In this document: positions 53,787-56,465 of the stretch, piece by piece | How positions within the stretch are numbered: the first letter of the stretch is position 1 | How the letters are laid out: each line of letters opens with the position of its first letter | Translations under genes and position numbers: made by a program | Notes under the pieces: model-generated | Told to the model about the DNA's origin: nothing | Databases searched by the model: none | What the model saw: the letters and a program-made list of their open reading frames with translations, nothing else | Assembly: GCA_963812945.1 (NCBI GenBank) | Contig: CAWEXD010000008.1 | Coordinates: 806,001-870,000, forward strand | Direction of reading: 5' to 3' | DNA length: 64,000 nt | DNA from: DASRDR01 sp963812945 [NCBI: uncultured Candidatus Rokubacteria bacterium] | GTDB taxonomy: Bacteria > Methylomirabilota > Methylomirabilia > Rokubacteriales

Positions 53787-54686
53787 TCAGCGCGGCCCGC
53801 CGGCTCGCGCGGCCGCCAGACGCATCGCGCGGTCGTGAAGCAGCGGCGCGCCGACGTGCGCCGCCCATCGCTCGAGCTCGGGGCGCGGGCCCGTCCAGCG
53901 GAGCCCGTCCACGTCGACGCCGATGGGCGCATCGGCGCGCAGCGTCGCGAGCTCGCGGAAGAGGAGGGCGCGCTCGCGCTCGGCCGCCAGCGTCGCGGCC
54001 AGGCGCGCCGCGCCCCGCACGGACACGTCCCATTCCGTCGCCTGCGCCGGGATGTGCTCGAGGTGCCGGTAGCGGGCGAGCACCGCCGACGCGGACGTCG
54101 CCCCCCAGCCGGGCAGCCCCGGGTAGCCGTCCGCGCTGTCGCCCACGAGGGCGAGCCAGTCGGGAATCGAGGTGGGCGGGACGCCGAACTTCCGCTCGAC
54201 GCCCGCCTCGTCGCGGACCTCGCGCGTTCGCCGGTCGAGCTGGACGATCCGCGTTCCCCGCACGCACTGCGCCAGGTCCTTGTCCGGGGTGCAGACCACG
54301 ACCTGCTCGACGCGCGGGTCGGCCGCGGCCATCGCCGCCGCCGCGGCCAGGGCGTCGTCGGCCTCGAACTCGTCCATGGCCCAGACGACCACGCCGAGGG
54401 CGCGGAGCGCATCCTCGACCGGCTCGAACTGGGCGTAGAGCGCGGGATCCAGGCCCTCACCGGTCTTGTAGCCGGGCCAGAGGGCGTTGCGGAAGGACTC
54501 GATGACGTGGTCGGTCGCCACGCCGAGGTGCGTGGCGCCCCCCTCGAGCATCCCCAGGACGGACGTGATCACGCCGCGGACGGCCCGCATCTCGACCGGG
54601 GCGGCGCGGTCGAAGGCCGCCGGCGACAGGAAATAGCGGAAGAGCTCGTACGTCCCGTCGACCAGGTGGACCTTCACGCTTGGCAC
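53787..54686 (-). CDS. Stand-alone 5'-3' exonuclease (FEN/DNA polymerase I N-terminal domain family)
   Basis: About 299 residues. VHLVDGTYELFRYFL holds the first metal aspartate, DEFEADDALAAAAA and VVVCTPDKDLAQCV the central acidic cluster, and WLALVGDSADGYPGLPGWGATSA the helix-3-turn-helix and last acidic pair. No polymerase domain follows. Such single-domain proteins act as flap endonucleases/5' exonucleases in repair or Okazaki processing. Only GTG starts are available (54713, 54686, 54677); 54686 is a compromise. It runs divergently from the selenoprotein-like gene, 62 bp apart. Confidence 0.9.
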   Translation of the reverse strand: MPSVKVHLVDGTYELFRYFLSPAAFDRAAPVEMRAVRGVITSVLGMLEGGATHLGVATDHVIESFRNALWPGYKTGEGLDPALYAQFEPVEDALRALGVVVWAMDEFEADDALAAAAAMAAADPRVEQVVVCTPDKDLAQCVRGTRIVQLDRRTREVRDEAGVERKFGVPPTSIPDWLALVGDSADGYPGLPGWGATSASAVLARYRHLEHIPAQATEWDVSVRGAARLAATLAAERERALLFRELATLRADAPIGVDVDGLRWTGPRPELERWAAHVGAPLLHDRAMRLAAARAGGPR

Positions 54687-54748
54687 GACCGCACGATACG
54701 GCAGCGGGCCCACGATGGGAACCCGGGCCGTGGCACAATCGACCTGTC

Positions 54749-55495
54749 ATGGTGACCGCGGGCCGTCTCGCCGCGCTCAGCGTCCTGATCGCCGTCGGCG
54801 CCCCCGTCGCCTACGCGCTCCTGCTCCGGGTCCCGGTGGTCCGGAACCACCCGGAGGGCTACGTGGTCGCGTTCGCGCTGGCGGCGGCGCTGGCCGCCCT
54901 GGCGGTTGCCCGCGCGCGGGGCCGCCGCTGGCCCGCCTGGCTGGCGCTCGGCTTCTCGAGCCTTCTCCTGGTCGCCGGGGCCTGGTTCAACTTCGTCGGC
55001 GCGCGGGTTCCGGCGACCCCGACGGCCCTCGCCGTGGGCGAGCCGCCGCCGGCCTTCACGCTGCCGGATTCGGCCGGCCGGCCCGTCTCGCTCGCCGACT
55101 ATCGCGGGAAGAAGCCGGTCATCCTCATCTTCTACCGTGGCTACTGGTGACCCTTCTGCATGGCGGAGCTCCAAGGGCTTGGAGCCAAGCTGGGGGAGGC
55201 CGAGCGCGCGGGTGTCGAGGTCGTCGCCGTCTCGCCCGATCCCAACGAGCGGAGCCAGCAGCTCGCCGACGGCCTGGGTCTCGCGTACCGGTTCCTCGCC
55301 GACCCTGACCTGGCGGTCGCCCGCCGCTACGGCCTGGTGCACGCTGCCGGGGGCGCCGAGGGGCAGGACGTGCCACGGCCGGCCACGATCGTGCTGGACA
55401 GGGACGGGGTCGTGCGCTGGTTCTCGGTCAGCGGAAACTTCCAGGTACGACCGGACCCGGACGACGTGCTGCGTGCAGTGCGCGCGCTTTCGTGA
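54749..55495 (+). CDS. Membrane-anchored peroxiredoxin-like selenoprotein (in-frame TGA read as selenocysteine)
   Basis: Two open stretches in one frame are separated by a single TGA at 55148-55150. Together they give 248 residues: three transmembrane helices (about 5-27, 38-56 and 64-82), then an AhpC/TSA thioredoxin-fold domain. The join reads FYRGYW-TGA-PFC, so the TGA (residue 134) falls exactly at the peroxidatic cysteine of the YRGxWCPFC motif, giving U-P-F-C. The sequence after it is fully conserved (VEVVAVSPDPNERS, YRFLADPDLAVARRYG, PRPATIVLDRDGVVRW) with no frame loss. A stem-loop that could act as a SECIS follows. Known bacterial selenoproteins include such peroxiredoxins. It lies 10 bp ahead of fpg, suggesting a joint oxidative-damage unit. 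Confidence 0.85.
55148..55150 (+). other. TGA selenocysteine codon (candidate)
   Basis: In-frame TGA in the peroxiredoxin-like gene, replacing the peroxidatic cysteine codon: TAC TGG TGA CCC TTC TGC. The resolving-type cysteine three codons later gives a UxxC redox motif. Recoding requires SelA, SelB, SelC and SelD, none of which is in this window. Confidence 0.8.
55168..55185 (+). other. Candidate bacterial SECIS stem-loop
   Basis: GCTCCAAGGGCTTGGAGC folds into a perfect seven-base-pair stem with a GGGC tetraloop. The loop begins 24 bases after the TGA, inside the range known for bacterial SECIS elements (loop about 16-37 bases downstream, guanine in the first loop positions). It lies wholly within the coding sequence, as bacterial elements do. 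A SelB-binding function is inference. Confidence 0.65.
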
Positions 55496-55505
55496 GCCTG
55501 ACCGC

Positions 55506-56465
55506 GTGCCGGAGCTGCCCGACGTCGTCGCGTACCTGACGGCCCTCGAGCCGCGTGTCGTCGGAAAGCGGCTCGAGGGGATCCGCCTGGCGAGCCCCTT
55601 CGTCCTCCGCTCGGTCGACCCGCCGGCGTCGGACGCGGCGGGCCGGACGGTCGTGGGGCTCCGCCGCCTCGGCAAGCGCATCGTCCTCGCGCTGGACGGC
55701 GAGATCTTCGTCGTGATCCACCTGATGATCGCCGGCCGCCTCCACTGGCGTCCGGCCGGCGCGCGCCCGCCCGGACGCGTGGGGCTGGCCGCGCTCGACT
55801 TCCCGGACGGCACGCTGACTCTCACGGAGGCCGGGACCCGGCGCCGGGCCTCGATCCACCTGGCGCGCGGCGAGCCGGCCCTGGCCGCTTTCGATCCGGG
55901 AGGTCTCGACGTGCTCGGGGCGACGCCCGCAGCGTTCCGCGCGTCGCTGTCGCGAGAGCGGCACACGCTGAAGCGGTCGCTCACGGACCCGCGCTTCCTC
56001 GACGGCATCGGCAACGCCTACGCGGACGAGATCCTGCATCGGGCGCGCCTGTCACCGGTGCGGATGGCGGACCAGCTGGGTGACGAAGAGCTGGGACGGC
56101 TCCTCGCCGCGGCGCGGGCCGTGCTCACGGAATGGACCGACCGACTGTCCGGGACGGCGCGCCTGACCTTTCCCGAGAAGGTCACGGCCTTCCGCGAAGG
56201 AATGGCGGTCCACGGCCGGTACGGGCAGCCGTGCCCGGTGTGCGGCGCGCCTGTGCAGAGGATCGTCCACGCCGAGAACGAGACCAACTACTGCGCGGTC
56301 TGCCAGACCGGCGGGCGGCTCCTGGCCGATCGCGCCCTGTCGCGCCTCCTCCACCAGGACTGGCCACGCACGCTCGAGGAGCTGGAGGAGCGGCTCCCGG
56401 GCGGGGCTGCGCGCGGTGCGGCGGGCGCCGCGGCGCGGCCGGCTCGGCGCCGCTCGGGGCGATGA
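55506..56465 (+). CDS. Formamidopyrimidine-DNA glycosylase (Fpg/Nei family)
   Basis: 319 residues. The initiator GTG is followed by PELPDVVAYLTALE, which provides the catalytic N-terminal proline and Glu. The helix-two-turn-helix is in DPRFLDGIGNAYADEILHRARLSP, and the zinc finger is CPVCGAPVQRIVHAENETNYCAVCQ. It excises oxidised purines (8-oxoguanine, FapyG) and nicks by beta/delta elimination. The C-terminus has an extra Arg/Ala-rich tail of about 30 residues. It starts 10 bp after the peroxiredoxin-like gene ends. Confidence 0.9.
   Translation: MPELPDVVAYLTALEPRVVGKRLEGIRLASPFVLRSVDPPASDAAGRTVVGLRRLGKRIVLALDGEIFVVIHLMIAGRLHWRPAGARPPGRVGLAALDFPDGTLTLTEAGTRRRASIHLARGEPALAAFDPGGLDVLGATPAAFRASLSRERHTLKRSLTDPRFLDGIGNAYADEILHRARLSPVRMADQLGDEELGRLLAAARAVLTEWTDRLSGTARLTFPEKVTAFREGMAVHGRYGQPCPVCGAPVQRIVHAENETNYCAVCQTGGRLLADRALSRLLHQDWPRTLEELEERLPGGAARGAAGAAARPARRRSGR

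Follow-up and report, generated by a model that had tools for sequence, protein, structure and literature searches.

Among predicted selenoproteins, Table 1 of the review PMC13188914 lists Prx-like thiol:disulfide oxidoreductases, which combine the PF00578 domain with a UxxC or UxxU motif, and the same review states that one Methylomirabilota MAG carries 63 predicted selenoprotein genes. In ocean data, 225 UxxC selenoproteins of the class 'Prx-like 1' were counted (PMC2398784). The same Prx-like class is used in PMC9312934, and a Prx-like selenoprotein was reported for Asgard archaea (PMC11291895). Further selenium literature concerns srdA selenate reduction (PMC6662431) and the sel genes of the phylum KSB1 (PMC9012183). 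Prx-like UxxC selenoproteins are therefore already known, and the gene described here is another member. Judged by comparison of related sequences, it very probably encodes a selenoprotein of this kind, with UGA codon 134 specifying selenocysteine (Sec). It was found in a 64-kb window of soil-bacterium DNA, that is, the whole stretch of 64,000 nucleotides analysed:

54749..55495, + strand: probable selenoprotein gene of 248 codons plus stop, with TGA 134 read as Sec and TGA 249 as stop; predicted three-helix anchor and AhpC/TSA domain
55148..55150, + strand: TGA codon 134, Sec by comparison (TGA in 25/25 sequences; Cys in 4/5 compared homologues from other phyla)

With the 'Prx-like 1' class the gene shares the AhpC-TSA domain, the UxxC motif and the existence of Cys homologues elsewhere, so that both elements of the definition in Table 1 of PMC13188914 (PF00578 and UxxC) are present. 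In addition it has three predicted N-terminal membrane helices; the class was compared by that definition, and other members, such as the listed representative WP_010940744.1, may also have an anchor. The AhpC/TSA proteins of the peroxiredoxin-like family cd02970 (PF13911 in PMC9312934) are likewise peroxiredoxin-like, and four plasmid-borne Cys homologues of our gene are annotated as 'peroxiredoxin-like family protein'; the motif given for that family in Table 1 of PMC13188914 is UxxS, whereas UxxC is found here in all 25 sequences. The Sec-containing peroxiredoxins of the TxxU type (NF040737, PrxU) also belong to the peroxiredoxin family and also carry Sec in the active-site loop, but Sec stands three residues earlier in our protein, which scores 34.5 bits against a cut-off of 270 for that model. 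AhpE of Mycobacterium tuberculosis and PrxQ/Bcp are among the closest solved folds and sequences; unlike these, the protein has no PxxxT/SxxC motif and no active-site Arg, and a membrane anchor is added. In the open-licence PMC literature on selenium and selenoproteins of Rokubacteria/Methylomirabilota and on Prx-like UxxC transmembrane selenoproteins, we found no description of this gene or of its membrane anchor.

Reading frame and conservation of TGA codon 134

Re-reading of the sequence confirmed that a single frame runs from the ATG at 54749 to the TGA stop at 55493-55495, as had been noticed from the sequence alone, and that its sole interruption is the TGA in the context FYRGYW-U-PFC. 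Under the standard code, the gene is split into two frames (54680-55150 and 55160-55495). Among the 1166 TGA triplets that the window contains on its two strands, codon 134 alone was flanked on either side by long, codon-biased open frames, in a screen with thresholds set by us and a codon table trained partly on the same gene family. No further selenoprotein candidate appeared among these triplets at the same thresholds.

A scan of genome contigs yielded 17 loci; one of its six patterns sought Cys at the place of codon 134. Eight of these loci (L001-L008, from MAGs of Candidatus Rokuibacteriota/Methylomirabilota) are orthologues with 70-83% identity, and all eight have TGA at the same codon. 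We then searched 95 genomes of the phylum, defined as that of G002, the genome of L002. Matches at an E-value of 1e-20 or better were obtained in 35 genomes. Close orthologues (E 1.6e-59 or better; 49 to 84% identity to the window protein) are present in 24 of these, G001-G008 among them. Codon 134 is TGA in 24/24 close orthologues and, with the window, in 25/25 sequences; these stem from related MAGs and cannot be counted as independent. Altogether 39 matches were listed in the phylum. An in-frame TGA is present in 38 of them, the exception being an N-terminal piece in G008 that ends before codon 134. We located the TGA in 30 of these 38 matches. They comprise the 24 orthologues plus six more distant paralogues (L074-L079), and in all six paralogues it lies within a UxxC motif. 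The paralogue motifs are UPNC, UASC, UEMC, UPYC and UAMC, and most of these loci have hairpins of their own, that of L075 being weak (-4.2 kcal/mol).

Cys in place of Sec was not seen among the phylum matches listed; with at most 28 candidates scored per genome, a Cys paralogue may have escaped this search. It was found outside the phylum, as alignment of homologues had been expected to reveal: of 97 matched plasmid records five were compared, and four (L080-L083) have Cys at the place of Sec134, in the motifs RGGWCPFC, RGGWCPYC and, twice, RGVWCPYC. The fifth (L084) has Ser at this place and Cys at 137. A homologue in a Chloroflexi MAG (L010:5173-5604) shows TGA in RGFA-U-PYC, so Sec at the 134 place may not be confined to Methylomirabilota. 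Four loci from Planctomycete MAGs (L013-L016) contain a TGA in the context GSFT-U-GPF of an AhpC-like frame and are possible selenoproteins; we take this motif to resemble that of deiodinases.

A sequencing error or pseudogene decay has to be considered, since a single base change from TGC would give the TGA and since a frameshift does occur in one related locus, L073. This explanation is refuted by the orthologues, as all 25 sequences share the TGA and come from different genomes, and we regard it as extremely improbable. Purifying selection also persists after the TGA: between the window and 12 orthologues (L050-L061), mean pN/pS is 0.24 after the TGA, 0.30 in the part of the domain before it and 0.40 in the membrane helices, which indicates that translation continues past the TGA.

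The counts of codons, stops and catalytic residues given here and below refer to 24 sequences including the window, the partial locus L070 of G008 being left out. The terminal stop in these 24 is TGA in 12, TAG in nine and TAA in three, while the internal codon is TGA throughout, so UGA would act as a stop elsewhere and as a sense codon at position 134. A genome-wide reassignment of UGA to Cys or another residue would equally leave the frame open, but TGA terminates half of these very genes, only one of the window's TGA triplets looks gene-internal, and SelA, SelB and a tRNA-Sec with the anticodon UCA are present in relatives (see below). There is next to no likelihood of such a reassignment.

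A conserved hairpin downstream of the TGA

The presence of a hairpin with a GGGC loop, beginning 17 bases after the TGA, had also been remarked on in the sequence-only reading. This hairpin is real and is conserved in all 25 sequences:

55168..55185, + strand: SECIS-like hairpin GCUCCAA-GGGC-UUGGAGC, marked by conservation and codon constraint, with its apical loop 24 nt after the UGA

Its arms are GCTCCAA (55168-55174) and TTGGAGC (55179-55185), the loop GGGC occupies 55175-55178, and the folding energy is -9.1 kcal/mol. According to the model limits given in PMC13188914, a bSECIS element has a loop of 3-9 nt, a stem of 4-16 bp, G in the first two loop places, a spacing of 16-37 nt and an energy of -7.5 kcal/mol. 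The hairpin lies within all of these, with a 4-nt loop beginning GG at 24 nt from the UGA. The form GCUCCAA-GGNC-UUGGAGC, 17 nt past the UGA and with the loop at 24 nt, occurs in 25/25 sequences. The only variation in the stem is one A-to-G change (L061) that keeps a wobble pair; with a stem so nearly invariant, there is almost no covariation to test. Energies range from -8.2 to -13.6 kcal/mol in 24 of the 25; L058 has the same 18 nt, but the scan picks out a different, stronger hairpin there.

The fit of the hairpin alone is weak evidence, and it is the conservation that carries weight. In the GC-rich window, a hairpin compatible with the bSECIS limits (-7.5 kcal/mol or better) occurs by chance after 184 of 1163 scored TGA triplets, and one of -9.1 kcal/mol or better after 107. 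Comparison of the folding energy with shuffled sequences for four stretches gave z values of -0.57, 0.11, 1.07 and -0.76, none of them significant, and a search of the window with Rfam returned no match over the gathering scores.

Codon usage is more telling. Among 33 alignment columns with an invariant residue of four- or six-fold degeneracy, a single codon is used throughout in only two, at +7 (CTC) and +10 (CTT), both within the hairpin. When all 47 degenerate columns with an invariant residue are considered, the rarest majority codons are CTT at +10, CAA at +8 and GGA at +11, all in the stem, where they occur in 24, 24 and 23 of 24 sequences. In the rest of these genes, CTT accounts for 3.9% of Leu, CAA for 4.2% of Gln and GGA for 5.1% of Gly codons, and the next-rarest majority codon among the 47 columns has a usage of 21.8%. 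At the Gly of +9, whose third base falls into the loop, all four codons are used. That rare codons are kept in the stem while the Gly codon in the loop varies points to selection on the RNA, as for bacterial SECIS elements. According to these comparisons, the hairpin 17 nt downstream would direct SelB and tRNA-Sec to decode UGA 134 as Sec.

Selenocysteine genes in related genomes

The genomes of L001-L008 were searched for the decoding machinery. SelA, SelB and SelD are each over their cut-offs in 8/8, the SelB of G003 being in two pieces, and a tRNA-Sec is over the cut-off in 7/8 (68-71 bits), with the anticodon UCA in all seven. Among 14 known control genomes, the cut-offs were passed by tRNA-Sec in five, SelB in two, SelA in one and SelD in two; a tRNA-Sec match alone is thus not fully specific. 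In the seven genomes with selC, this gene lies on one contig with selA and selB (for example G002:C52 11779-16461). In G008, 1.36 kb of contig precede selA, and the contig end falls roughly at the place expected for selC. In all eight genomes, selD has a TGA within its own AGUASK motif (L042-L049), so the selenophosphate synthetase is probably itself a selenoprotein there.

Across the phylum, selA is over the cut-off in 83 of 95 genomes. It is found in all 24 orthologue genomes, over the cut-off in 23 and as a fragment in the 24th. In four genomes (G012, G060, G063 and G088) a distant paralogue with TGA is present but selA was not matched; these MAGs may be incomplete. In the 64-kb window, neither a match to SelA, SelB and SelD of G002 nor, with ARAGORN, a tRNA gene was found, and we infer the sel genes of the window's own species from its relatives. 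Together with the TGA conserved in every sequence, the varied terminal stops and the codon constraint in the hairpin, the sel genes of these relatives lend strong support to the initial proposal of a selenoprotein.

Domain structure and membrane anchor

The proposed membership of the AhpC/TSA family was confirmed by a PF00578 match with an E-value of 1.2e-31 (109.6 bits against a gathering score of 26). The three-helix membrane anchor, also proposed from the sequence, holds as a prediction:

54758..54820, + strand: predicted transmembrane helix 1, residues 4-24 (AlphaFold2 model, hydropathy)
54854..54913, + strand: predicted transmembrane helix 2, residues 36-55 (AlphaFold2 model, hydropathy)
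54929..55000, + strand: predicted transmembrane helix 3, residues 61-84 (AlphaFold2 model, hydropathy)
55034..55420, + strand: AhpC-TSA (PF00578) match, residues 96-224, with a peroxiredoxin fold in the model

In the AlphaFold2 model (pLDDT 85.5), three long N-terminal helices are followed by a peroxiredoxin fold, which matches Bcp4 with a Z-score of 22.5 (155 residues, 2.1 A) and AhpE with a Z-score of 21.8 (151 residues, 2.1 A). As modelled, three predicted helices would anchor a domain of peroxiredoxin fold in the membrane. Hydropathy analysis, in a count leaving out L008, detected at least three membrane-like segments in 23 of 24 sequences; in the exception, L073, the first two helices are in another frame. 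The frameshift of L073 lies in the membrane region, where L008 lacks about 35 residues, and decay or assembly faults may account for both. The charge of the loops favours an outward domain in 13/13 sequences of the window's clade and in 0/10 of the other clade, where the N-termini are cut in the alignment, L073 and L070 being left out of this count. This is a weak hint that the domain perhaps faces outward.

The sequence before the TGA encodes the three helices and the first part of the domain. It is conceivable that this arrangement forms a selenium-dependent switch, in which a 133-residue membrane piece, or a product restarted at 55160, matters when selenium is lacking. A possible start codon, ATG or GTG, stands at 55160 in 16 of 25 sequences, but the other nine have GTA, GTC, GCG or CAG there. 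A restart is thus not common to all of them, and each piece alone would comprise half a fold. We consider a switch of this type very unlikely.

Active site

The sequence-only reading had placed the TGA at the peroxidatic position of a peroxiredoxin. This assignment was not upheld by active-site alignments with AhpE, with PrxQ-type chains, with ApTPx and with the peroxiredoxin of Sulfolobus tokodaii. There, Sec134 is matched to the Thr/Ser of PxxxT/SxxC, and it is Cys137 that aligns with the peroxidatic Cys. The UxxC motif itself, also recognised in that reading, is borne out in 25/25 sequences. Two further positions of the active site are:

55157..55159, + strand: Cys137, partner in the UxxC motif, aligned with the peroxidatic Cys of AhpE/PrxQ; invariant in 24/24
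55379..55381, + strand: Pro211, aligned with an Arg of true peroxiredoxins; invariant in 24/24

The canonical PxxxT/SxxC motif is absent from all 24 sequences, which have the likewise invariant Arg130 at the place of the motif Pro and Sec134 at that of Thr/Ser. The canonical active-site Arg is also absent, Pro211 being found in 24/24 at the aligned place, just before a strand. We take the Arg at this place to be the catalytic Arg of canonical peroxiredoxins, and Pro211 to occupy the cis-Pro place of thioredoxins. On this equivalence, the UxxC motif together with Pro211 constitutes an active site of the thioredoxin kind on a peroxiredoxin fold.

These alignments bear on the possibility of a true peroxiredoxin with Sec as its peroxidatic residue. 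The fold (Z of about 22 with both Bcp4 and AhpE) and the PF00578 match would suit such an enzyme, Sec-containing peroxiredoxins of the TxxU type are listed in PMC13188914, and one of our scanned loci, L009, reads TKGU. Nevertheless, Sec134 stands three residues before the peroxidatic Cys, at the Thr/Ser place, the motif Pro and the active-site Arg are replaced by Arg130 and Pro211 in every sequence, and none of the NCBIfam models, those of peroxiredoxins included, reaches its cut-off with this protein (NF040769, SelL-related redox protein: 50.1 bits against 120). A true peroxiredoxin is thus an unlikely interpretation. A thioredoxin-type mechanism is probable instead, in which Sec134 would be the attacking nucleophile and Cys137 would resolve the intermediate as a selenenyl sulfide. 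The product is most likely a membrane-bound thiol/selenol-disulfide oxidoreductase or a thiol-dependent peroxidase and not a classical PxxxTxxC peroxiredoxin.

Gene neighbourhood

The genomic context was compared in 20 of the 24 orthologue genomes, over 6.2 to 10.7 kb each. Two genes flank the window's copy:

55506..56465, + strand: Fpg/Nei-type DNA glycosylase, next gene downstream, absent from 20/20 orthologue neighbourhoods
53787-54713, - strand: 5'-3' exonuclease-like gene, divergent upstream, also near the Sec gene in 4/20 neighbourhoods

The adjoining fpg gene had led to the suggestion of a link with DNA repair. It does adjoin the gene in the window, but tblastn found it in none of the 20 neighbourhoods, and likewise gave no match at L001-L017, so we reject the link to fpg, and one with DNA repair is not supported. 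The exonuclease gene, near the gene in the window and in only four neighbourhoods, appears to be clade-specific.

The commonest neighbour is a gene of one sequence cluster, a PIG-L deacetylase by the Pfam identity of one member, which lies directly upstream and in the same direction in 13/20 neighbourhoods (L088, L091-L093, L095-L101, L103 and L104; for example L096:4486-5184). In seven of the 13 it overlaps the Sec gene by 4 nt, according to our own choice of gene starts. The window's copy has no PIG-L gene beside it. The L096 member is nearest to BshB1, scoring 109.9 bits against a cut-off of 182.5, and we do not claim it as BshB. In four of the 20 neighbourhoods there is also a DinB/mycothiol-S-transferase-like gene (one member scanned), resembling mycothiol/bacillithiol transferases.

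The bacillithiol ligase BshC was found in 0/24 orthologue genomes. MshC was over the cut-off in 0/24, with sub-threshold matches in 24/24 that presumably represent cysteinyl-tRNA synthetase. Bacillithiol or mycothiol as the reductant is accordingly not supported, and the link to a thiol cofactor is only a lead. The PIG-L and DinB-type neighbours, set beside these two results, have suggested to us a selenol relay in Rokubacteria-type bacteria, bound to the membrane and facing outward, which would have a thioredoxin-like UxxC site on its peroxiredoxin fold and would serve a low-molecular-weight thiol not yet described; we offer this as an unlikely speculation.

Implications

This enzyme would escape any gene caller in which TGA counts as a stop. 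The hairpin, for its part, shows cleanly how a SECIS element can constrain codon choice in a GC-rich genome. Since Sec is present in all 24 close orthologues and selA occurs widely in the phylum, these uncultured bacteria lend themselves well to studying why a membrane redox enzyme retains Sec.
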